A DNA stretch of 64,000 nucleotides from Desulfocapsa sp. (lineage in GTDB: Bacteria > Desulfobacterota > Desulfobulbia > Desulfobulbales > Desulfocapsaceae): assembly GCA_016765495.1 (NCBI GenBank), contig JAESPV010000001.1:1-64000 (forward strand), written 5' to 3'. How positions within the stretch are numbered: the stretch's first letter is position 1; each line of letters opens with the position of its first letter. A program made the position numbers and the translations under genes. The notes under the pieces were generated by a model. The model was not told the DNA's origin. It ran no database searches and saw only the letters and a list, made by a program, of their open reading frames with translations. Positions 34,268-46,690 of the stretch are shown piece by piece.

Positions 34268-36997
34268 ATGAAGAACATATCATTATCAGATACAGAGTGG
34301 CACCATTTACCGACAGAGGAAACAACCACCCTGCTTACCAGTGATCGAAAAAAGGGACTCACACCTGAGGAGGCAGAGCAGCGCTTCCATCGCTTCGGTG
34401 CCAATGTACTCACCACACAACAGAGTCAGAGTCCCTGGATGCGTTTTCTGCTGCAGTTCCATCAGCCCCTGATCTACATCCTGATTGCAGCCGTGGTCAT
34501 CACTGCGGCATTGCAGGAATGGGTTGACTCGGGGGTTATCCTCGGAGTAGTACTGGTTAATGCAATAATTGGTTATATTCAGGAATCCAAAGCGGAGAGC
34601 GCCCTTGCCGCACTCGCTGAAACCATGGTCGCCGAGGCCACGGTTCTGCGCAATGGCCTGAAAAAACGCATCCCCTCAACGGAGCTTGTTCCCGGCGACA
34701 TTGTCCTGCTTCAGGCCGGTGACAAGGTGCCTGCAGATTTACGACTCCTGAAGATACGCGATCTGCAAGTGGATGAATCCGCCTTAACCGGAGAATCCGT
34801 ACCGGTGGAGAAGGCTGTTGAACCGCTCGATCAGGATACAGCCCTTGCTGAGCGAATAAACATGGCTTATGCTTCCTCCATGGTCACCTACGGTCAAGGC
34901 AGTGGCATTGTAATTGCTACTGGTGATCAGACTGAAATGGGCCGTATCTCCGATCTTATCTCTTCGGCACAGGATCTGGCAACACCTCTCACTCGTAAGA
35001 TTACTCATTTCAGTCATATCCTGCTTTATACCATTCTGGTGCTTGCGACAGTCACCATCGGGGTTGGCGTGCTTCGAGGACAGCCCCTATTTGACATGTT
35101 TATGGCAGCTGTCGCTCTTGCTGTAGGTGCAATTCCTGAAGGATTACCGGCAGCCGTGACCATCACCCTTGCCATCGGTGTTTCCAGAATGGCAAAACGA
35201 AGAGCAATTATCCGCAAACTTCCGGCCGTGGAGACTCTTGGCAGCACAACGGTGATTTGTTCGGACAAGACAGGGACACTCACAGAAAACCAGATGACCG
35301 TGCAGGCAATCATGGCAGGAGGCGTGCATTACGAAGTCAGTGGAGCAGGGTATGCTCCACTTGGACGGATTGTCAGGCAGGATGGCGAAGACGATGCTGT
35401 AAAAGCCATCCCACTCAGTGAATGCCTGCGTGCAGGTCTCCTGTGTAATGATAGTTTGCTCCATGAAAAAGATGGTGGCTGGCATGTGCAGGGCGATCCC
35501 ACAGAGGGGGCATTGCTTGCCGCTGCAGCCAAAGGCGGCATAAACGAAAAGGAGACTGAAGCACAAAGTCCCCGTCTTGATTCAATTCCCTTTGAATCAC
35601 AGCACCAGTATATGGCCACCCTCCATGATACGGGCAACTCCAGACCGCGAATGATCTACATAAAAGGTGCAGTGGAGCAGATTCTTGCCAAATGTACGGC
35701 AGCAATGGATGGTGATGGAAATACGACACAACTCAATAGTAAGAAAATTAATCAGGATGTCTCCAGCATGGCATCAAGAGGCCTGCGTGTACTTGCCTTT
35801 GCCCGCAAAGAAGTCGTTGCAGACACCATAACAATACACCATGAAGACGTAGCAACAGGGCTCACTTTCCTGGGCTTGCAGGGAATGATTGATCCGCCAA
35901 GGAGCGAGGCCGTGACGGCTGTGAAGATCTGCAAAGAGGCAGGGATCAGTATTAAAATGATCACAGGAGATCATCCCGTAACCGCAGCTGCCATTGCCGG
36001 CCAGATAGGCATAGCACCGGCGGTTATCGATGAAACCGAAAAAACAGGAGTGTACACCGGGCAAATGCTTGAAAAACTCTCCGACGAAGAATTAATTACT
36101 GTCGTCGAAGAGACAAGTGTCTTTGCAAGAGCCACTCCCGAGCAGAAAATCCGATTGGTACGAGCACTTCAGGCCAATGGTCATGTGGTGGCCATGACCG
36201 GTGATGGGGTAAATGATGCCCCGGCCCTGAAACAGGCCAATATTGGTGTGGCCATGGGGATCACCGGTACAGATGTCTCAAAGGAGGCCGCTGATATGGT
36301 GCTCACCGATGACAACTTCAGCTCCATTGAGGCAGCAGTTGAGGAAGGTCGCGGCGTGTTTGACAACCTGACTAAGTTTATTGTCTGGACTCTGCCCACC
36401 AACCTCGGAGAAGGCCTGGTTATTCTGACAGCAATTTTTCTCGGCATAACCCTGCCCATACTGCCGGTGCAGATCCTCTGGATCAATATGACAACAGCCG
36501 GTTTTCTGGGCCTGATGCTGGCCTTTGAGCCTAAAGAACCTGGCATTATGCAACGGCGGCCACGTGATCCCGATACTCCTATTCTCACCAGAGAACTGAT
36601 CACCAGGATTTTTCTGGTGGGTACTCTTCTGCTTATCGGCGCTTTTGGTCTTTTCAAATGGGAGCTGACAACAGGTGCCTCCATTGAGCAGGCGCGTACT
36701 GTGGCCGTGAATACCTTTGTCATCATGGAACTTTTTTACCTCTTTAACTGCCGCTCTTTGACAAAATCAATCTTCCAACTGGGAATTTTCACCAATATGT
36801 GGGTCTTTGGCGGGGTTGCAGTTATGCTTTTCACACAATTGCTCTACACCTATCTGCCACTTATGAATCTCTTGTTTCAAAGCGAGGCAATCGGTGCAGA
36901 TTCCTGGCTACGGATTATACTGGCCGGGCTTATTACATATGTGATCGTTGAACTGGAAAAAAAGATACGTGCCAGTCGCTTAACAGAACAATCATGA
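34268..36997 (+). CDS. P2-type cation-transporting ATPase
   Basis: A 909-residue membrane pump with all P-type landmarks: cation ATPase N-terminal domain, actuator motif TGES (174-177), the phosphorylated Asp333 in CSDKTGTLTE, and hinge TGDGVNDAPALKQANIGVAMG. It has about ten membrane segments. The M4 motif PEGLP (290-294) and the M5 Asn and Glu (TNLGEG) match Ca2+-ATPases. The M6 Asp that completes the Ca2+ site in SERCA (NLVTDG) is replaced: here NMTTAG. The transported ion is therefore uncertain (Ca2+, Na+, H+ or another). It is followed by the psiE-like and usp genes at short spacing, forming an operon. Confidence 0.92.
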   Translation: MKNISLSDTEWHHLPTEETTTLLTSDRKKGLTPEEAEQRFHRFGANVLTTQQSQSPWMRFLLQFHQPLIYILIAAVVITAALQEWVDSGVILGVVLVNAIIGYIQESKAESALAALAETMVAEATVLRNGLKKRIPSTELVPGDIVLLQAGDKVPADLRLLKIRDLQVDESALTGESVPVEKAVEPLDQDTALAERINMAYASSMVTYGQGSGIVIATGDQTEMGRISDLISSAQDLATPLTRKITHFSHILLYTILVLATVTIGVGVLRGQPLFDMFMAAVALAVGAIPEGLPAAVTITLAIGVSRMAKRRAIIRKLPAVETLGSTTVICSDKTGTLTENQMTVQAIMAGGVHYEVSGAGYAPLGRIVRQDGEDDAVKAIPLSECLRAGLLCNDSLLHEKDGGWHVQGDPTEGALLAAAAKGGINEKETEAQSPRLDSIPFESQHQYMATLHDTGNSRPRMIYIKGAVEQILAKCTAAMDGDGNTTQLNSKKINQDVSSMASRGLRVLAFARKEVVADTITIHHEDVATGLTFLGLQGMIDPPRSEAVTAVKICKEAGISIKMITGDHPVTAAAIAGQIGIAPAVIDETEKTGVYTGQMLEKLSDEELITVVEETSVFARATPEQKIRLVRALQANGHVVAMTGDGVNDAPALKQANIGVAMGITGTDVSKEAADMVLTDDNFSSIEAAVEEGRGVFDNLTKFIVWTLPTNLGEGLVILTAIFLGITLPILPVQILWINMTTAGFLGLMLAFEPKEPGIMQRRPRDPDTPILTRELITRIFLVGTLLLIGAFGLFKWELTTGASIEQARTVAVNTFVIMELFYLFNCRSLTKSIFQLGIFTNMWVFGGVAVMLFTQLLYTYLPLMNLLFQSEAIGADSWLRIILAGLITYVIVELEKKIRASRLTEQS

Positions 36998-37027: not shown

Positions 37028-37498
37028 ATGGATGATTTATCAAACCCGAAAGAACCACTTGTCCAGATAATACGGAATACTGTCCATATGGCGGTTAGGG
37101 CACTGGCCATATTGATGACTATTGTCATCCTCTGGGGCGTTGCTGATGTCGTTATGGTACTGTATCAAAGACTGATGACACCACCTTTTATGATGTTAAC
37201 TATCTCCGATATGCTTAGTCTTTTCGGTGCCTTTATGGCGGTGTTAATTGCCATCGAAATCCTCATTAACATCATCATCTATCTGCGGGATGATGTTATC
37301 CATGTGAGGATCGTCATGGCAACAGCATTGATGGCCATTACCAGAAAGGTTATTATTATGGATTTCACCACGATTACAGCCGACTATATGCTGGCCGTGG
37401 CAGCAGTAGTTTTTGCCATGAGCATAGGCTACTGGCTGGTGGTGATAAAAGATACGTCAAATGGCAATCCAGAACAATCTGTGGAGTATAGATTATGA
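37028..37498 (+). CDS. psiE: PsiE-family membrane protein
   Basis: A 156-residue integral membrane protein with four predicted helices (about 22-48, 60-85, 95-110, 118-140). The pattern of a long amphipathic start, LLSLFGAFMAVLIAIEILINI and RKVIIMDF is typical of phosphate-starvation-inducible PsiE proteins, whose biochemical role is unknown. A ribosome site AGGAGAAGG precedes the ATG. Its stop overlaps the Usp start by four bases (ATGA), giving translational coupling. Lies 30 bp after the ATPase gene. Confidence 0.8.
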   Translation: MDDLSNPKEPLVQIIRNTVHMAVRALAILMTIVILWGVADVVMVLYQRLMTPPFMMLTISDMLSLFGAFMAVLIAIEILINIIIYLRDDVIHVRIVMATALMAITRKVIIMDFTTITADYMLAVAAVVFAMSIGYWLVVIKDTSNGNPEQSVEYRL

Positions 37499-38424
37499 AA
37501 GAGTTTAAAAATATCCTGTTGGTTCATGACAACACTGAGTCCGGACAATTCACCCTCAGTAACGCCATCGATCTGGCAAGTCGAAACCAGGCCCAGTTGA
37601 CTGTAATCCAGGTAATAGACCAGATTCCACACGATTATCGCATGTTGATTACATCAGTTACCAGTGAAGAAATAATGAATCTGGCAATCAAGGAGCAGAC
37701 CTTGCTCCTTGAAAAAGCTGTTGCACATTTTCCGAAGACTCCCAACATAAAATGTAAAGTAATTGTGGGCAGGGAGTTCATTGAAATTATAAAAGAAGTG
37801 CTGCAGAACAAACGTGACCTGGTGATCAAGACCGCCCGTGGCATGGGCGGGACCCTCGGCATGCTGTTTGGTTCCACAGCCATGCATCTGCTGCGGAAAT
37901 GTCCCTGTCCGGTGTGGTTGATAAAACCAGGCCAGGGGCAGCAGTTTCACCGGATCATGGCTGCAGTGGACGTGGTTCCGCTGGATAGCAGTGGAACAGC
38001 CCTGAATACTAAAATCATGGAACTGGCGACTGCTCTTGCCCGCGTGGACAATGGCAAACTTCACACCGTACATGCCTGGGACTGGACATCACCTGACACA
38101 CAACTCCATACACACGAGGGTCCTGTCAACATTCTTGACCGAATCAAAGAAATGCGCACTGGATGGATGGAGGATCTGCTTGGAAAGTGTGATTTACAAC
38201 ACCTTGCGCATCAGGAGTTTGTCGTGCAGGGCAATACCGCTGAGGTCATTCTTGAACATGCAGAGCAGCATCAGATCGACCTTGTTGTGATGGGTACGCT
38301 CTGCCGTACAGGAATTTCCGGTTTTTTTATCGGCAATACTGCTGAAAAGATACTGCACCGGATGAAGTGCTCCGTATTGGCGGTTAAACCCGATGGGTTT
38401 ATCAGCCCTGTACTGCCTGATTAA
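37495..38424 (+). CDS. Tandem universal stress protein
   Basis: A 309-residue cytoplasmic protein with two UspA domains (about 1-142 and 150-300), like UspE. The ATP-binding loop is seen in both: GMGGTLGMLFGSTAMHLLRKCPCPVW in the first and GTLCRTGISGFFIGNTAEKILHRMKCSVLAVKP in the second (G-x2-G-x9-G type, the second modified). It is the last gene of the ATPase-psiE-usp group. Tandem Usp proteins bind nucleotides and modulate stress physiology. The 191-bp gap after it holds stem-loops. Confidence 0.9.
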   Translation: MKEFKNILLVHDNTESGQFTLSNAIDLASRNQAQLTVIQVIDQIPHDYRMLITSVTSEEIMNLAIKEQTLLLEKAVAHFPKTPNIKCKVIVGREFIEIIKEVLQNKRDLVIKTARGMGGTLGMLFGSTAMHLLRKCPCPVWLIKPGQGQQFHRIMAAVDVVPLDSSGTALNTKIMELATALARVDNGKLHTVHAWDWTSPDTQLHTHEGPVNILDRIKEMRTGWMEDLLGKCDLQHLAHQEFVVQGNTAEVILEHAEQHQIDLVVMGTLCRTGISGFFIGNTAEKILHRMKCSVLAVKPDGFISPVLPD

Positions 38425-38538
38425 AAAAATCGCTTTGGGGAAGAATTAAACCGAGGCAATCACATGGATGGTACCTGGTACGGTCAGGAAATCCGTCTTT
38501 GTGGTTTTCAAGTAAACCATTTGGCAAAGCTCAAACAT

Positions 38539-38574
38539 CCTCGGCCCAACCTTTTGTTGAGCTTGGGCTTGAGG
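38539..38574 (+). terminator. Stem-loop between the Usp and ion channel genes
   Basis: CCTC and GCCCAA (38539-38549) pair with TTGGGC and GAGG (38563-38574), with an alternative inner stem CAAC/GTTG. No T tract follows. It may separate the two operons or be a processing signal. Confidence 0.4.
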
Positions 38575-38615
38575 GTGCCTGAAATTATAAAATAAACACT
38601 TTTACAACAACTATA

Positions 38616-39437
38616 ATGCAAACGGCAAGAATACAACAAAAGTTTAATAAACTGCGCAGTAACAAGATGTTTGAGTTTTTTGTTATTGGTATTATTATTT
38701 TCTCAGCACTGATTATTGGTGCAAAGACCTATAACATCCCCCCCGCTCTTCTCCAAGTTGTATATCTGCTCGACTGGTTCGTTACCTTCTTCTTTCTGAC
38801 AGAAATAACCATTCGTTTTCTGGGTGAAGAGAAGAAGAAGGATTTTTTTAAAAAGGGCTGGAATATTTTTGATACTTTGATTGTTACTATCAGTCTGGTT
38901 CCAGTGCAGGACAGTGAGCTGGCAGTCATTGGTCGTTTAATCCGGATTTTTCGTGTTCTGCGGATGGTTTCCATTATTCCCGAGATGCGACTGCTGCTAA
39001 ATTCACTGCTCATGGCACTGCCTCAGCTCGGCTACATTGTGGGTCTGATGTTTATTATTTTTTATATCTATGCTGCTGTCGGAAGTACCTTTTTTGCTGC
39101 TATTAACCCGGAACTGTGGGGGGATATCTCCATTTCGCTGCTAACTCTGTTCCGGGTTATGACCTTTGAAGACTGGACCGATGTCATGTATGAAACCATG
39201 AAGGTCTATCCTTTGTCCTGGACCTATTATCTGAGTTTCATCTTTTTCACAGCCTTCGCCTTTTTAAACATGGTCATAGGCGTTGTTGTGAACGTCCTCA
39301 ATGAGGAAAGTGACAAGATCAAAAAGGAGAAAGAACAGGATTTGCAACAGGTCAGCCTGGAAGACCTCGACAACAAGCTAGAGGAACTCAAGAGGCTGAT
39401 TTTACTGAGGGAATCCCCTACAAAAAGGGACACATAA
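38616..39437 (+). CDS. Voltage-gated cation channel, BacNav/CaV-like single-domain
   Basis: A 273-residue six-helix channel subunit that should assemble as a tetramer. S4 carries four arginines at every third position (R107, R110, R113, R116), the voltage-sensor pattern. The pore loop filter is TFEDWTD (183-189); NaChBac has LESWAS, and the acidic E-D-W-T-D form resembles CaV domain I and the engineered Ca-selective NavAb. S6 is followed by a heptad-like C-terminal helix (~228-265), as in BacNav channels. The stop codon shares one base with the start of the histidine kinase gene (TAATG), so the two are coupled. Ca2+ or mixed Na+/Ca2+ permeation is inferred from the filter. Confidence 0.9.
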   Translation: MQTARIQQKFNKLRSNKMFEFFVIGIIIFSALIIGAKTYNIPPALLQVVYLLDWFVTFFFLTEITIRFLGEEKKKDFFKKGWNIFDTLIVTISLVPVQDSELAVIGRLIRIFRVLRMVSIIPEMRLLLNSLLMALPQLGYIVGLMFIIFYIYAAVGSTFFAAINPELWGDISISLLTLFRVMTFEDWTDVMYETMKVYPLSWTYYLSFIFFTAFAFLNMVIGVVVNVLNEESDKIKKEKEQDLQQVSLEDLDNKLEELKRLILLRESPTKRDT

Positions 39438-40480
39438 TGCATACTATCCATATCACACTGAAACAGAAATGGGCACTGCTTGCTTTCCTGGTAGTAGGAA
39501 TCACGATGCTTCATTACAGTACGGAGCAGAGCAGCTATTATTTTCGGGTATTTTACAGCGAGCTCTACTTCCTGCCAATTGTGCTGGCCGCTTTCTGGTT
39601 TGGTTTACGTGGAGCTCTGTCTGCCTCTATTACGATCAGCGCATTTTACCTGCCCTTTATTTTCTGGCACTGGCAGGGTTTTTCCGCAGCAGATCTCGAT
39701 AGTATATTATCCCTTTTCCTTTACAACGGCCTGGCTCTACTCACCGGTGCCTTAAAAGACAGAGAAACAGCCTCCCGGAAAACGATGATAGAGGCCGGGA
39801 GTCTTGCGGTCATGGGCAGATCCCTTGCCGCAGCAGCACATGACATGAGATCACCCCTGATACTTATTGGCGGTTTTGCCAGGCGTATTTTAAAAAAAAT
39901 GGATGAGAGTGACCCTGCCTGCCAGAAACTGAATTGTATTATACAGGAAACCGAAAAGATGGAACGGATGACCGCAGATATGCTCGACTTCTCCAAGCCC
40001 CTGAATTTGAAGCTCACAAAGGGGAACATGGATACAATTATCCGGAGCTCTCTGGCTAAGGTAAGGGAACTGTCCAAAAGGAAAAATGTATCTGTCACAT
40101 ACCACCCCAGCCCCGAAGCACCAGATATCAAATTTGACACCATGCGTTTTGAACAGGTACTGGTTAACCTTATACAAAATGCTATTGAAGCCTCTCCCGA
40201 GGGAGGTTCGGTAACCGTTACAATTCCATTTTCATCACCCACAAACCTGATTCTTGATGTTGCTGATAATGGCAGCGGCATACCACTTGCTAAAAGACAA
40301 CAGGTCTTTGACCCATTCTTTACCACTAAAAAAGAGGGAACCGGTCTTGGTCTGCCAATTGTGAAAAAGATTGTCGACGCCCACGGTTGGTCACTGGAGA
40401 TTCTGGATAATGGGAGTGGCGGAACTCTATTCAGAATGAACCTGACAGAGGACAATACCAGTGATCACCTACATAACTGA
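39437..40480 (+). CDS. Membrane sensor histidine kinase
   Basis: A 347-residue sensor kinase. About four N-terminal membrane helices lie in residues 10-108 with almost no extracytoplasmic loop, so it likely senses something in or through the membrane. HisKA has phospho-acceptor His135 (AAAAHDMRSP), and the ATPase domain has LVNLIQNAIEASPEGG, DNGSGIPLAKRQQVFDPFFTT and GTGLGLPIVKK. The gene starts inside the stop codon of the channel gene, and its last 20 bp overlap the diguanylate cyclase gene. No receiver gene is directly adjacent; the partner could be elsewhere. Sensing of channel-driven ion flux or membrane potential is inference. Confidence 0.9.
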   Translation: MHTIHITLKQKWALLAFLVVGITMLHYSTEQSSYYFRVFYSELYFLPIVLAAFWFGLRGALSASITISAFYLPFIFWHWQGFSAADLDSILSLFLYNGLALLTGALKDRETASRKTMIEAGSLAVMGRSLAAAAHDMRSPLILIGGFARRILKKMDESDPACQKLNCIIQETEKMERMTADMLDFSKPLNLKLTKGNMDTIIRSSLAKVRELSKRKNVSVTYHPSPEAPDIKFDTMRFEQVLVNLIQNAIEASPEGGSVTVTIPFSSPTNLILDVADNGSGIPLAKRQQVFDPFFTTKKEGTGLGLPIVKKIVDAHGWSLEILDNGSGGTLFRMNLTEDNTSDHLHN

Positions 40481-41288
40481 GTTGATAACAGGAAACTACC
40501 AGCCACCTACAGAGACTCCGGCATCTGCAAAACATCCGAACCGCAACAAACGTATTGTACAATTTATCCTGTTTGGCATGGTCATTGATCTGCTGCTTAT
40601 CTTGGCTGAATTAGCCGCCGGGGTATCCCCTCTGGAAAATATAACTCGGCATCCCTGGCTTTATGGCTATATCTTTCTGATCACAGTGGGAGCATTTGCA
40701 TTCTTTGGGGCAATGGTCGGTTCCAAAGAGGATCAACTGGAAAAGCTTGCCCTGCGTGACCCTCTCACCGGTCTCTTTAATTCCCGTTATCTGTGGGCCC
40801 GTATGGGGGAGCAGTGGGCCACCGGGAAGCGGGAAAAGATAGACAGCTCACTGATCCTCTTTGACCTGGATTTTTTCAAACGGGTGAATGACAGGTATGG
40901 ACATCCTGTGGGTGACGAACTGCTCAAGCATATTGGAAAGATTCTGCAGCATGCTGCCCGAAGAAGTGATGTGGTGTCCCGGATAGGTGGAGAGGAGTTT
41001 GTCTTTTTTCTGCCAAACACTTCTGCGACTGCGGCTGCAGCCATTGCAGAGCGTATTCGTGATACGATCTGCAGGACACCGCTTATTACAGACAAAAAGC
41101 ACCGAATCAGTATTACAATTTCAGCAGGTGTTGCCAGCACAAACGACTATGCCAGCACCACTCCCAGGACGCTTTACGCGGAGGCTGACAAGGCACTCTA
41201 CCTTGCTAAAAAACATGGAAGAAATCGGGTAATTACCAGCAAGCCTCCTGAGAAGGACGTTCATGGAAACATAGAGACAAGAGCGTAG
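40461..41288 (+). CDS. Membrane diguanylate cyclase
   Basis: A 275-residue GGDEF protein with two membrane helices (about 32-53 and 66-86) and a short periplasmic loop. The cyclase domain is intact: DPLTGLFNSRY, FDLDFFKRVNDRYGHPVGDELL, the active site GGEEF (176-180), and an inhibitory site RRSD (167-170). It makes c-di-GMP. The start is GTG at 40461, inside the last codons of the kinase gene, with GAGG upstream. The tight overlap channel-kinase-cyclase implies a single co-regulated signalling unit. Confidence 0.9.
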   Translation: MITYITELITGNYQPPTETPASAKHPNRNKRIVQFILFGMVIDLLLILAELAAGVSPLENITRHPWLYGYIFLITVGAFAFFGAMVGSKEDQLEKLALRDPLTGLFNSRYLWARMGEQWATGKREKIDSSLILFDLDFFKRVNDRYGHPVGDELLKHIGKILQHAARRSDVVSRIGGEEFVFFLPNTSATAAAAIAERIRDTICRTPLITDKKHRISITISAGVASTNDYASTTPRTLYAEADKALYLAKKHGRNRVITSKPPEKDVHGNIETRA

Positions 41289-41328: not shown

Positions 41329-41874
41329 ATGGAACAGTACTGCAAATCAGCCACAATCCCTTTCACAGGGACAATACTCTTTCTATTCTTCATGTTCTCG
41401 AGTTTCCAGGCCCTTGCCTCAGATAATGACACCATCCGCCAGCGTATTCTGGATCAGGTGACAGAACAGGCAACTCTTGGCTCAAGTAGGGTTACAATTT
41501 ATGTTGAGGATGGATTTGTTCTACTCACCGGTAGCGTTCATCGTTACCTGCACAAAATGACTATTGAGAAAATTGCCTGGAAGACAACGGGTGTCACTGA
41601 GGTGGAAAATGAAATTTGGGTTAAAGCTCTGTTCCCCCTTAGCGACACGCTCATCAAGAAAAAAGTACGCATGATCCTGATGGATTGTGAGTGCTTTCAC
41701 GGTGGGAATCATCTTGTACAGGTGGCCGCAGGAGCTGTTTCGGTGACTGGGGTCTTTTTCCACCCCCGTGATGTGCAGCTTCTCAAACGGAAAATTGCGG
41801 AAATTGAGGGGGTTGTTGCCATAAAAATTCGTGCCACAGCCCTCCTCGCAAAAGAGACGGTATCATCTGAATAA
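41329..41874 (+). CDS. Periplasmic BON-domain protein
   Basis: A 181-residue exported protein. A signal peptide (cleavage after FQALA, about residue 27) precedes two BON domains: residues ~33-95 (VTIYVEDGFVLLTGSVHRYLHKMTIEKIAWKTTGVTEVENEI) and ~98-170, the second degenerate. BON domains bind phospholipid or the envelope and appear in osmotic-shock proteins such as OsmY. It lies 40 bp after the cyclase gene and precedes XpaC/TelA. A role in envelope stress is likely. Confidence 0.82.
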   Translation: MEQYCKSATIPFTGTILFLFFMFSSFQALASDNDTIRQRILDQVTEQATLGSSRVTIYVEDGFVLLTGSVHRYLHKMTIEKIAWKTTGVTEVENEIWVKALFPLSDTLIKKKVRMILMDCECFHGGNHLVQVAAGAVSVTGVFFHPRDVQLLKRKIAEIEGVVAIKIRATALLAKETVSSE

Positions 41875-42187: not shown

Positions 42188-43162
42188 ATGGGAAAGCCAA
42201 CCCAGCCCGACTGGCCACAGGTGCTCAAGTCACTGTTAAGCGAAGGGACGGAACTTGCTGCCCGCTGGCTGCCAAAAGGTGCAATAAAAATTGAGCAACA
42301 GATTCGACTAAGAGCAGAAGAACTTCAAGAGCTTCAACAGCGCAGAAAAAAGGCAGCGGCTCTCAGACCGCGTAAATCCCGTCTGCTCTGGCTGCTGCCC
42401 CTGCCCTTAATACCTGCAACAGCCATTGCCCTTGCCGTCGGGAATTTTGCAGCCTTTGCCGCTAATGCCAGTGCTTATGGATTATTCCTCGCAGGTGCCA
42501 TGCTGACCCGCAGAGGTTTCAAACAGGAAGTAAGCCATGGACAACAGAAATTCCTGACCACCGGCCGCAGGCCATACAAGACCATGGGCGGTCTGGCTGT
42601 TGCGCTGGCTACAGCCCTGACGGCCGGGACAGGTGCCGGACACTCAATACCCATAGCACTTGCTTTTGGAGGAGGAGCATTTGGCGCCTTTGTCCTGCTC
42701 TATGGTCTTGATCCGCGCCTGCAACAGGTGGTAGCGGAGAAAGGTAACACCAATATCCAGCGTGTCACCTTAGCATTACAGGAAGCAGAACAGAAGATCC
42801 TCACCATCGAAGAGGCTGCGTCCCGTATCAACCAACCTGAATTGAACAGACGCCTTATCCGCATCATTGCATTGGCACGGGGAATTCTTACTGAGATCGC
42901 CCGTGACCCTGATGATATGCGTCGCGCACGAAAATTTCTCACCACCTATCTTGATGGTACCCAAAGGGTGGTCATCGGGTATGCAGACACACCTGCCAGC
43001 AACCGGGTACAAACGCTTGAGGAAAATTTTAGCCGCGTGCTGGTGACCATTGAAGAGGTGTTCGGACAGCAGCACCAGAGACTGCTTGAGAACGACCTTC
43101 GTGATCTTGACGTGAATATGGAAGTACTTGAAAACCAGCTGAAACGTGAAGGTCTTAATTGA
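42188..43162 (+). CDS. xpaC: XpaC-like membrane protein (5-bromo-4-chloroindolyl phosphate hydrolysis family)
   Basis: A 324-residue protein. It has a basic N-terminal helix, two close hydrophobic regions (~66-105, LLWLLPLPLIPATAIALAVGNFAAFA; and ~130-172 with GGLAVALATALTAGTGAGH), then a soluble helical domain (175-324) rich in Gln and Glu with LARGILTEIARDPDDMRRARKFLTTYLDGT. XpaC domains usually sit next to TelA genes, as here (27 bp apart). The biochemical function is unknown; the phosphatase name is historical. A link with membrane-active stress or anion toxicity is inferred from the partner. Confidence 0.8.
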   Translation: MGKPTQPDWPQVLKSLLSEGTELAARWLPKGAIKIEQQIRLRAEELQELQQRRKKAAALRPRKSRLLWLLPLPLIPATAIALAVGNFAAFAANASAYGLFLAGAMLTRRGFKQEVSHGQQKFLTTGRRPYKTMGGLAVALATALTAGTGAGHSIPIALAFGGGAFGAFVLLYGLDPRLQQVVAEKGNTNIQRVTLALQEAEQKILTIEEAASRINQPELNRRLIRIIALARGILTEIARDPDDMRRARKFLTTYLDGTQRVVIGYADTPASNRVQTLEENFSRVLVTIEEVFGQQHQRLLENDLRDLDVNMEVLENQLKREGLN

Positions 43163-43189
43163 GGCGCACCTGTCAAAGGAAGATAAACC

Positions 43190-44314
43190 ATGATTGATGA
43201 TACAGAAATTAAAACCATTGAAGCCGACATACTGCAGGGCAAATCCCTGATGCGTTATCAACAGGCCGCACCGCCGGAACGTAACGCGATAGATGCACTG
43301 ATTCAGGAAATTGACCTGACTGACAGCCATTCTCTGCTCTATTTTGGCGCACCCGCACAGCAGCAGCTGGCATCCATTTCCGACGACATGCTGGATGGCG
43401 TACGTAATAAAGATACAGGGCCTGCAGGCGAAGCACTGAACCGTATGATGAGTACGGTGCGGAATTTCGACCTTGGAAGCATGGATCCCGCCAGTAAGCC
43501 CGGTTTTTTTGCCCGTCTTCTCGGAAAAACCAGATCAGTAACCAACTTTCTCCAACGGTATGAGGAGGTACGGGACCAGATAGATTCCATTGGTGATGAT
43601 CTTGAGCGTCATAAGACGCAACTGCTCACAGACATTGCCTCACTCGACCGTCTCTACACGGCTAATCTTGAGTATTTTCACCTCCTGGAACGCTATATCA
43701 TAGCGGGTGAGGAAAAATTACGGCAGCTTGATACGGAGACTATCCCTGCCATGGAGCTTGAGGCCGGAAAGAACGAAGCATTGCTGCCAGCTCAGCAGTT
43801 GCGTGACCTTCGCTCCAATCGGGATGCTCTTGACCGACGGATTCATGATCTTAAACTGACTCGTCAAGTGGCCATGCAGAGTCTACCGAGTATCCGTCTG
43901 GTTCAGGAAAACGATAAAGGACTGGTGAACAAGATTATCTCCACCACGGCAAATACCCTGCCCCTGTGGCGACAGCAACTGGCTCAGGCGGTGACCATCC
44001 ACCGCTCCCGCGAGGCGGCATCCACAATCCGCGCAGCCAGTGATCTCACCAACGAATTGTTAAAAGCCAATGCCGAAAACCTGAAACAGGGTAATGCCGA
44101 AGCACGCAGGGAAATCGAACGTAGCGTATTTGATATCGATGCAGTGAAGCAGGCCAATGCCTCACTGATTGAGACGATTGAAGAGAGCCTAAGCATCGCA
44201 GATGAAGGTCGTAAAAAGCGTAGCGAAGCAGCTCTTCAGCTTGAATCCCTTGAATCTGAACTGCGCAGAAGTCTGGTCAGCGCAAGCGCTCAGGTAACTG
44301 CCGGATCCAGTTAA
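43190..44314 (+). CDS. telA: TelA-family toxic anion resistance protein
   Basis: A 374-residue soluble, mostly coiled-coil protein of the TelA/KlaA family (tellurite and other toxic-anion resistance; also membrane-stress tolerance). Family-like segments: SVTNFLQRYEEVRDQIDSIGDDLERHKTQLLTDIASLDRLY, ERYIIAGEEKL, QSLPSIRLVQENDKGLVNKIISTTANTLPLWRQQLAQAV. The last ~130 residues are a charged coiled coil. It is the last gene of the plus-strand island; the next gene is convergent, 37 bp away. Confidence 0.9.
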   Translation: MIDDTEIKTIEADILQGKSLMRYQQAAPPERNAIDALIQEIDLTDSHSLLYFGAPAQQQLASISDDMLDGVRNKDTGPAGEALNRMMSTVRNFDLGSMDPASKPGFFARLLGKTRSVTNFLQRYEEVRDQIDSIGDDLERHKTQLLTDIASLDRLYTANLEYFHLLERYIIAGEEKLRQLDTETIPAMELEAGKNEALLPAQQLRDLRSNRDALDRRIHDLKLTRQVAMQSLPSIRLVQENDKGLVNKIISTTANTLPLWRQQLAQAVTIHRSREAASTIRAASDLTNELLKANAENLKQGNAEARREIERSVFDIDAVKQANASLIETIEESLSIADEGRKKRSEAALQLESLESELRRSLVSASAQVTAGSS

Positions 44315-44351: not shown

Positions 44352-46010
44352 TCACTCCCCAAGTTTACGAATTGGCAGGGTCAAGGTAAAAACAGCTCCT
44401 TTTTTCGCCCCGTTCCTAACATCAATAGTTCCTCCCAGTTTTCTCATAATGTCATAGCAGATTGACATTCCCAAGCCTGTTCCTTTTCCAGGATCTTTGG
44501 TTGTAAAAAAAGGATCAAAAATTTTGTCAAGTATCGCCGGATTTATTCCTGTTCCACTGTCTGCAAATTCCATATAGATGGTATCTGCATCCGCTCTGGT
44601 GCGTATTTCTATCTTCCCATCCGTTCCGATTGCATCAAGGCTGTTGTTCAATAAATTCAGGAATACCTGCTGCAATTGCGGTGCATCAGACATGGTGGGT
44701 GGCAGATTTTCAATAAATAGTTTCTCAATCTGTATGTTATTATTCTTCGCATCATTTTCGACAAACGAAAGTGTTTCTTCGATAATGTCATTCACGTTAA
44801 CACATTCCTTCTCCGCCTTCATCTTGCGAGAAAACCCAAGTAAACGGTGGGTTATCGTTCCCGCACGCTTAACGTGATATCGTATCTTGTCGATTGAATC
44901 TTTATACTCTTCCAGATTTTTCACCTGGCCTGGATTTTCCTCGACCAGCAACTCATCAATCCAGCCAGCCTGGTTAGTAATCATCTGCAATGGATTGTTA
45001 ATCTCATGGGCAATACCCGCAGCAAGCCTGCCCACTGTTGCCATTTTTTCCACCTGAACCATCTGTTGATTGACCTCTTGTCTTTTATAAGCCATCTTTT
45101 CAAGCAGACGCACCATGTAATAGCCGATATACGCTGCAAGAAGCAACACTACGACGGATGTTATTATAAGAATGGCAATGTTGAAATCTCTATTTTTATA
45201 ATAGAGACCAAGGGAATCTCTTACCCTGGACTTGATAACCAGAAGCCATTGATCGTCCTTTAGCCAACTGGTAGCGTAGAGGTAAGGGCCTATTTGGGTA
45301 AGCGTAGTTGCTTCGGGAGATTTAAGAAAATCTCTTTCCTCTGGAGTAAGAGTCTTTACCCCCTGGAGACTCGGTGTCTGAAATTCCCCCTGGCGATTGA
45401 CAATAAAGGCATCTCCGTCCGGCCCTATCTTGGCACTAAACAAGAGCGCATTGAAGATTTCTGAATTCACCGTGGCTCGCAGTACATAGGTTTTAAGGGG
45501 GTCGGTTACTGCAACTACAAAGTGAGGTACCCCCCGATAGCCTGTAAAAACATTACTGACATGTTTACCGTTAATTAAAACGTCCTCAAACCATGACTGT
45601 CCATGATAATTTTTATTTTCGATGCGACTTCTGTAAGGTCCGACATAGGCCACCTGTTTTCCGGCTGAATCAATAACATGCAGATCAACGATTTCATGTG
45701 TCTTGTTCACCACCGTAAAAAGTTTATCTAACAGTTCCTGCTTGCCAAGATAATCAAGAGAATACATGCCGGTCAGGGTGGTGAGAAGGTTTTCCTGTTT
45801 TTGGAGAAAAAGAGAAATGACATCCATTCTATGAGTTGCAATACCGGTCTCGATTATTTCAATTTTACGAAGTGCACATTTTTTAAAATTGTAAGACGTG
45901 ACCAGGAAAACAATCGATACCGGAATAAGGATGAGAATGGAGACAGTAGTTTGCAGACGTCTTCTTATAACTGAATAAGGTGTTTCTTCTTCCAGCATTT
46001 TGAAATCCAT
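44352..46010 (-). CDS. Cache-type sensor histidine kinase
   Basis: A 552-residue sensor kinase. Two membrane helices (~20-42 and ~277-300) flank an extracytoplasmic dCache domain (43-275, with [20 protein letters not shown] and [10 protein letters not shown]). No HAMP is seen. The HisKA site is His335 ([11 protein letters not shown]), followed by N, G1, F and G2 boxes ([44 protein letters not shown]). It senses a small ligand, as dCache domains do. It is the last gene of the minus-strand signalling block, 26 bp after the HTH/receiver-like gene. Its likely receivers are the stand-alone receivers upstream. Confidence 0.92.
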
Positions 46011-46036: not shown

Positions 46037-46690
46037 TTATTTAAAAAGAGAATGAATCTTTTTAACCAGTTCGTTTATATTGATACATCGCCCCACAACC
46101 GCATCAGCTCCTGCAGCTTTGATCTGCGCTATGTTTTCCCCGGATATATTATTTTCTACTATTGACAGAACACGGCATCCACCTGTTTTTTTCGCAAAAC
46201 GAATAAGTTGCAGAGCATTGTCATGGGCACTACTGGTGTATGTGACAATCAAATCCGGGGCAAAGGTCAGTATTTTGTATTTGGCTTTGCGTTCGTAGCA
46301 AACGGTGTCAGAAATGAAATTATCCTCAGTCCTGAGTTTTTGAAATAAATTAACCAGAAATGTAACATAAATATATTTCAATATTCGTCTGGAAAAAATA
46401 AAGAGTATTTTTTTGGCCTCGGCAGGGAGTATTGAGGCGGGTATGGGCATATTGTGTCGCACCAGAAAGTCTATCAGATCCTGGCAGTAAACTTGCTCGG
46501 ATTCTTTTGCGAGTGGTTTCAAACCCCTTTTGCTGATCCACTTTTTAACCCTGTCTTCAGAAACACAGCACAACGAAGCGACTTGTGTAAAAGTGACTAT
46601 TTCAAGTTTACTGTTTTTAATATTTTCTGCTACCATGCGTGTTTGCTCAAAGCTGAAGGAACTAGTCGCAACTGATGCGTACCTTTTCAC
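46037..46690 (-). CDS. Helix-turn-helix plus receiver-like protein
   Basis: A 217-residue protein. An N-terminal MerR/excisionase-like helix-turn-helix (TFTQVASLCCVSEDRVKKWISKRGLKPL) is followed by a basic linker and a C-terminal flavodoxin-like or receiver-like fold (APDLIVTYTSSAHDNALQLIRFAKKTGGCRVLSIVENNISGENIAQIKAAGADAVVGRCININELVKKI). The usual phospho-acceptor Asp is in a PDLIV context and replaced by T, so it is a pseudo-receiver or a ligand-binding fold. The start is unclear: GTG at 46690 overlaps the receiver gene by 29 bp, and an ATG at 46636 is an alternative; neither has a good ribosome site. Probably a DNA-binding output for this block. Confidence 0.7.
   Translation of the reverse strand: MKRYASVATSSFSFEQTRMVAENIKNSKLEIVTFTQVASLCCVSEDRVKKWISKRGLKPLAKESEQVYCQDLIDFLVRHNMPIPASILPAEAKKILFIFSRRILKYIYVTFLVNLFQKLRTEDNFISDTVCYERKAKYKILTFAPDLIVTYTSSAHDNALQLIRFAKKTGGCRVLSIVENNISGENIAQIKAAGADAVVGRCININELVKKIHSLFK

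Follow-up and report, generated by a model that had tools for sequence, protein, structure and literature searches.

We analysed a window of 64,000 nucleotides from a contig of Desulfocapsa sp. (JAESPV010000001.1; family Desulfocapsaceae), in which three consecutive genes of the same strand encode a single-domain voltage-gated cation channel, a membrane histidine kinase and a membrane diguanylate cyclase (Table 1). A preliminary description of this DNA had placed a channel, a membrane kinase and a cyclase with an intact GGEEF motif at 38616-41288, overlapping by 1 and 20 bp, and our analysis agrees with it on these points; the channel is intact and the kinase complete. We found that kinase and cyclase, whose active-site motifs are intact, form an overlapping pair that has been conserved, next to which the channel appears to be a separable neighbour.

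The comparison within the genus covered 20 genomes, the window's own (G000) included, and we counted as close homologues channels 78-100% identical to that of the window and kinases and cyclases at least 72% identical. Close kinase and close cyclase genes were each found in four genomes: G000, G006, G008 (Desulfocapsa sulfexigens DSM 10523) and G009 (a Desulfobulbaceae metagenome-assembled genome). The kinase has all of the H, N, G1, F and G2 boxes of a two-component kinase; the H box of the G009 protein reads AAAHDMKSSL. The cyclase has, in all four genomes, the GGEEF motif, the region of the metal-binding Asp and the RxxD inhibitory site, as expected of a diguanylate cyclase, and its enzyme domain is preceded by two hydrophobic segments. 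The GTG start of the window gene is supported by the homologous starts of G006, G008 and G009, which are ATG; the G006 gene has a further in-frame ATG 12 bases upstream.

The four-helix membrane part earlier ascribed to the kinase is plausible but weakly defined. DUF4118, the membrane domain of KdpD, matches the kinase at 20.3 bits, against a cut-off of 28.4; a hydropathy scan at a threshold of 1.5 gives a single broad region; and the four helices of the predicted model have a predicted local distance difference test score (pLDDT) under 50 in this part (the model, with a mean of 51.5 from 2 sequences, was not used as evidence). By Pfam, neither kinase nor cyclase contains a Ca2+-binding domain, and the cyclase contains GGDEF only, with no receiver domain of the PleD or WspR type. 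No response regulator was found among 18 flanking genes of the window scanned with Pfam, a part of all those flanking the kinase. Because the cyclase lacks a receiver domain, and thus the standard phosphotransfer route, we propose that the kinase may control it by contact.

The channel has the features that define the BacNav family, namely an Ion_trans domain, an arginine-repeat S4 (the stretch RLIRIFRVLRMVS, beginning at amino acid (aa) 107) and an acidic P-loop filter, and voltage gating is predicted. TFEDWTD is shared by 77 of 78 aligned relatives, the remaining one having TFESWTS; the alignment comes from 80 fetched loci, two of which gave no open reading frame (ORF) match. The closest solved BacNav is NavRh (4dxw), the best single-domain match by sequence with 217 bits, slightly below the summed repeats of human Cav3 (225 bits). 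NavRh was also the top single-domain match (44% identity, E 3.9e-10) in a fold search with the predicted model of the channel (mean pLDDT 69, built from 20 sequences). In the 191-bp gap before the channel (38425-38615), which occurs once in the window's genome, interleaved inverted repeats (AAGCTCAA/TTGAGCTT and GCCC/GGGC) can be seen by eye, and these could form a pseudoknot. We set aside a leader RNA at this position, as Rfam gave only a sub-threshold microRNA match on the opposite strand (E 0.021, 25.8 of 88 bits). The promoter and terminator scans, with 14 against 8.4 in shuffles and 7 against 5.0 in shuffles, respectively, were uninformative and showed no promoter of the channel's own.

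The intact order of channel, kinase and cyclase is present in three of the 20 genomes (the window, G008 and G009). In the window the channel stop TAA (39435-39437) and the kinase ATG at 39437 have one base in common; G008 has the same 1-bp overlap, and in G009 the two genes lie 4 bp apart. Ratios of non-synonymous to synonymous substitution rates (dN/dS), calculated pairwise for each genome against the window, show purifying selection on the intact genes. They were 0.084, 0.074 and 0.029 for the channels of G009, G010 and G008 (the last is a rough value, its dS of 2.9 being near saturation), 0.234, 0.177 and 0.181 for the kinases of G009, G008 and G006, and 0.154, 0.084 and 0.137 for the respective cyclases. 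Three genomes have kept the gene order although their pairwise dS values from the window are about 0.65 to 2.9, which is beyond chance. This conservation is a better argument than our rough estimate of chance adjacency, which came to ~1e-4 per gene (candidate counts of 63 and 18, with 3,500 genes assumed).

Table 1. Features of the locus, with the three genes of interest first; positions are those of the window unless a locus is named.
Feature	Position	Strand	Basis or remark
Single-domain voltage-gated cation channel, filter TFEDWTD	38616..39437	+	273 aa; Pfam Ion_trans, E 2e-41
S4 voltage sensor RLIRIFRVLRMVSIIPE	38934..38984	+	aa 107-123; checked against DNA
Selectivity filter TFEDWTD	39162..39182	+	aa 183-189
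Membrane histidine kinase, DUF4118-like N-terminus	39437..40480	+	347 aa; HisKA and HATPase_c
Kinase/cyclase overlap	40461..40480	+	20 bp; kept in 4/4 genomes with the close pair
Membrane diguanylate cyclase, two hydrophobic segments and GGDEF	40461..41288	+	275 aa; GGDEF, E 1.2e-44
P-type (P2-like) cation ATPase	34268..36997	+	Pfam; best NCBIfam match PMR1-type Ca ATPase, below cut-off
PsiE-family membrane protein	37028..37498	+	Pfam PF06146, E 6.4e-34
Tandem universal stress protein (Usp), UspE-like	37495..38424	+	Pfam; NCBIfam below cut-off
BON-domain protein	41329..41874	+	Pfam; 40-bp gap after cyclase
MpsC-family gene	L116:11604-11981; L117:798-1175; L118:10036-10413		Pfam PF10057 for the L116 copy, others by similarity

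Close channels were found in six of the 20 genomes (G000, G006, G007, G008, G009 and G010), and in five of these six the channel lies downstream of the P-type ATPase; elsewhere in the genus, ATPases of 83-86% identity occur only in G006, G008, G009 and G010, in each case ahead of the channel or of what remains of it. In two of these genomes the channel and the pair are separated. In G006, whose sister genome is G008 (ATPase, kinase and cyclase 88-89% identical), the channel is broken: it contains two in-frame stops and its matches fall in several frames (dN/dS 0.125 over 192 codons), and an IS110 transposase gene separates it from an intact kinase/cyclase pair. G010, sister to G009 (ATPase and channel 89-91% identical), has an intact channel behind the ATPase, with an RCK K+ channel next; its kinase and cyclase were not found genome-wide at the thresholds used, nor was the BON gene in the 17-kb stretch. 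Because G006 keeps the pair with a broken channel and G010 the channel where the pair was not found, the channel appears separable from kinase and cyclase in both directions, and the close pair was never seen split. The channel of G007 lies on a 3.1-kb contig with 539 bp past the ORF, and kinase and cyclase were found neither on this contig nor genome-wide at the same thresholds (the genome is 85% complete). The earlier claim of one functional unit therefore stands for the kinase and cyclase, whose overlap is kept wherever the close pair occurs, and is unclear for the channel. We tentatively favour the reading, plausible if a little short of probable, that this is an ion and envelope stress locus in which kinase and cyclase are one co-translated unit and the channel is a separable neighbour.

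We also examined the surroundings of other relatives of the channel. We fetched 80 channel loci, 68 of which hold 2.5 kb downstream, and set aside L015 (the G009 locus); in none of the other 79 did we find a homologue of the kinase or of the cyclase (E 1e-3) behind the channel in the same orientation and no more than 2.5 kb away. Conservation of the gene order in relatives, the test set in the preliminary description, thus has a mixed outcome. In L034 and L086 a convergent GGDEF gene adjoins the channel, and in L050 a kinase lies on the opposite strand, 1.4 kb away. Among the 76 loci in which a channel ORF is followed by 400 bp or more of sequence, 16 have a tight same-strand ORF behind the channel, one of them being the L015 kinase; ten of the other 15 were scanned with Pfam and none is a kinase or GGDEF protein (L026 gave no match). 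Across the taxonomic order (257 genomes), channel matches at E 1e-20 were found in 16 genomes, six of them in the genus, and the ten other channels are 30-36% identical, with the filters TLESWSG (8), TLESWSH (1) and TLESWAG (1). In a channel tree of 89 rows, picked mostly by similarity to the window channel, a single clade (100/99) comprises the five Desulfocapsa rows and lies within a set of 13 rows (100/94), the other eight of which are labelled as gammaproteobacterial. The channel looks to have been acquired from Gammaproteobacteria, a transfer that the tree supports and does not prove.

Channel homologues elsewhere have varied downstream neighbours, which would suit a reading in which the three genes have no functional link, the channel having merely been inserted upstream of an existing unit in a locus that gathers stress and ion genes. 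Genes are indeed readily gained and lost here: besides the IS110 insertion in G006, the Usp gene is whole in G006 and G009 and present as remnants in G008 and G010, and the PsiE gene of G009 appears frameshifted (two tblastn pieces). We nevertheless consider the absence of any link rather unlikely, because the 1-bp overlap or 4-bp gap has been kept at dS of at least 0.65 under purifying selection in three genomes.

Relatives of the kinase are more widespread than the pair. In the family set (93 genomes, 18 genera), kinase matches of E 1e-50 or better occur in 14 genomes of 7 genera and are 36-75% identical outside the window, and cyclase matches at 1e-60 occur in 4 genomes; in the six other genera, neither this channel nor this cyclase adjoins the kinase. 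In 9 of 9 relatives compared, aa 1-112 of the kinase are more conserved than aa 118-345, the narrowest excess being that of the G029 kinase (54 against 52%). This is the reverse of what we would expect for a fast-changing sensor and points to a signal that may be common to carriers with and without the channel. Several neighbours of kinase homologues have roles in ion or membrane-energy processes, or in transport: a Na+/H+ exchanger (G081), an EamA transporter (G029), cytochrome bd (G020) and, in G082, a sub-threshold ClC-like protein behind which lie a CitMHS transporter and an MscS channel. In G106 and G097 an ATPase homologue (71-72%) has the kinase homologue (51-52%) immediately behind it, and neither the channel nor a homologue of this cyclase adjoins the kinase.

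This last arrangement is consistent with control of the Kdp type, in which the kinase would mainly regulate the P-type ATPase and the cyclase would be a side output. KdpD is described as carrying a Usp domain (PMC8214093) and as acting on its pump also after translation (PMC11018627), and the separate Usp protein of the window might replace that domain. We consider this improbable: the ATPases of G106 and G097 are 93% identical and may count as one case, other genomes have the ATPase with no such kinase beside it or the kinase with no ATPase, and no KdpE-like regulator was seen beside the kinase. As a separate observation, the 7.8-kb contig L173 of G061, from another genus, carries an ATPase 86% identical to that of the window, and homologues of the channel and of Usp are absent from it; transfer of the ATPase from one genus to another is possible.

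The cation that the channel passes bears on the chain proposed in the preliminary description, according to which depolarisation opens the channel, the kinase reads the entry of a cation (Ca2+) and the cyclase makes cyclic di-GMP (c-di-GMP). Ca2+ had been deduced from the more acidic filter. NavPp, whose filter is TLEDWTD, is Na+-permeable and Ca2+-blocked (PMC7041947), and according to a review an Asp after the key Glu has one of two effects, selectivity for Ca2+ or a conductance of Na+ that mM Ca2+ blocks, so that both outcomes are allowed for this filter (PMC10120453). Since NavPp has the nearest native filter to have been measured, the channel more likely passes Na+ than Ca2+, and the deduction of Ca2+ is weak. 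PMC7041947 also reports that channels of Halomonas elongata and Teredinibacter turnerae with NavPp-like filters gave no current; a channel from Teredinibacter sp. (L040) is 70% identical to that of the window, and for this branch we found no published current.

The neighbouring ATPase scored 727.1 of the 798.3 bits set by the NCBIfam model of PMR1-type Ca ATPases and lies below the cut-offs of all three Ca2+ models that it matched (TIGR01522, TIGR01116 and TIGR01517). An Asp in M6 has a role in Ca2+-transporting P2 ATPases, and the M6 Asp of SPCA is replaced by Ala in the window protein. A Ca2+ pump beside the channel is therefore not supported by M6 and the model scores, and with the Ca2+-blocked filter of NavPp these led us to reject a Ca2+ module of channel and pump as the leading idea.

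In favour of the proposed chain are the tight gene order in three genomes, the conservation of catalytic motifs and filter, and the location of all four close kinase/cyclase pairs at loci with a channel or its remnant. The solved 'ammonium transporter' 8qj3, with a GGDEF-like stretch, ties a transport protein to a cyclase, and the engineered filters TLEDWSD and TLEDWAD made NavAb and NaChBac Ca2+-selective, as told in PMC7041947. The chain nevertheless seems quite improbable to us, given that G006 has kept the pair with a broken channel and G010 the reverse, that the nearest measured native filter is Ca2+-blocked, that Pfam finds no Ca2+-binding domain in kinase or cyclase, and that a Ca2+ pump is not supported.

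Under the stress-locus reading that we favour, the locus would comprise the ATPase, PsiE, Usp, channel, kinase, cyclase and BON genes, and the channel would have been acquired and have joined it in an ancestor of some members of the genus. The conserved membrane part of the kinase would sense a state of ions or of membrane energy that the organisms with this kinase share, and would act on the membrane cyclase, co-translated with it, by direct contact, on an unlinked response regulator, or on both. The channel would admit cations on depolarisation, Na+ being likelier than Ca2+, and would be co-expressed with the pair without being an obligate upstream step. Several observations weigh against this. 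The four close pairs all sit at channel loci, as would be expected if they depended on the channel; the separations are only two events, that in G006 perhaps a recent decay of the channel; and the near-saturated dS of the G008 channel makes one of the selection estimates rough. Other neighbours of kinase homologues have no ion role (a GNAT protein, a sulfatase-modifying factor, a pseudouridine synthase, a trehalose phosphatase and a sugar kinase), outside the genus ATPase homologues mostly stand without an adjoining kinase of this family, and no response regulator, the expected partner of the kinase, was found in 10 Pfam-scanned genes near kinase homologues.

Further genes surround this core. 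The BON gene is possibly on the same transcript as the cyclase; it also follows the cyclase in G006 and G009, and was not found in the G008 stretch. Just downstream of it lie Halogen_Hydrol (XpaC-like) and TelA toxic-anion-resistance genes (42188-44314, + strand). A second histidine kinase, with a dCache domain, is encoded at 44352-46010 (- strand); the gene beside it (46037-46690) has no Pfam match, and no response regulator was seen there. RCK K+ channels with the filter TVGYGD follow BON in G009 (L117:1239-2255, - strand) and directly follow the voltage-gated channel in G010 (L118:8723-9751, + strand), and are 94% identical to each other. MpsC-family genes lie downstream at three loci (L116, L117 and L118): the gene follows the K+ channel in G009, and in G010 both lie behind the voltage-gated channel.

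These genes could be taken for an excitability island, in which pump, depolarising channel, kinase and cyclase, with the RCK K+ channel and MpsC in G009, would generate changes of membrane potential, reset them and convert them to c-di-GMP. The MpsC gene occurs in four of the 20 genus genomes, the same four (few and related genomes) in which the ATPase has an intact channel behind it, and is lacking in G006, where the channel is broken. We regard such an island as very improbable. The K+ channel family occurs in nine of the 20 genomes, six of them without the voltage-gated channel, and the copies in the window's genome (a K+ channel of 64% and an MpsC gene of 87% identity) are on other contigs, neither of them at this locus; both points count against it.

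The role of single-domain voltage-gated channels in bacteria is largely open, and at the Desulfocapsa locus voltage may be wired directly to a signal. As the type strain D. sulfexigens DSM 10523 can be cultured, the locus offers a concrete test of membrane voltage feeding a second messenger, with G006 (broken channel) and G010 (no kinase or cyclase) as ready-made natural comparisons. A full-text search of open-licence PMC papers found no described operon of channel, kinase and cyclase, in agreement with the preliminary description, and nothing relevant, judging by titles and the opening of abstracts, on a bacterial voltage-gated channel with a diguanylate cyclase or c-di-GMP.

Among known channels, NavPp, one of the 'ancestor-like' BacNavs together with CavMr, is also single-domain and its filter differs from TFEDWTD by one residue, a similarity by filter only. 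NavRh is the best single-domain match by sequence and by fold; its filter sequence differs from that of the window channel. CavMr is set apart by a glycine at filter position 4, with a role there (PMC7041947), and a disulphide in the L6 loop (PMC10120453), whereas the window channel has Asp at that position and contains no cysteine. The KdpD/KdpE system with KdpFABC resembles the locus in having a DUF4118-like membrane kinase, with a Usp protein and a P-type pump close by. It differs in that the window kinase has no KdpD or Usp domain by Pfam and its DUF4118 match is below cut-off, that the pump here is P2-like, and that no response regulator was seen. PleD and WspR, which are among the solved relatives of the cyclase, are likewise GGDEF enzymes, of two-component pathways, but the window cyclase has two hydrophobic segments and no receiver domain. 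The ammonium transporter with a GGDEF domain (PDB 8qj3) is a precedent for linking transport to a cyclase, with the difference that it is one chain and not a set of channel, kinase and cyclase genes. All parts of the locus come from known families, and their arrangement is new to us.

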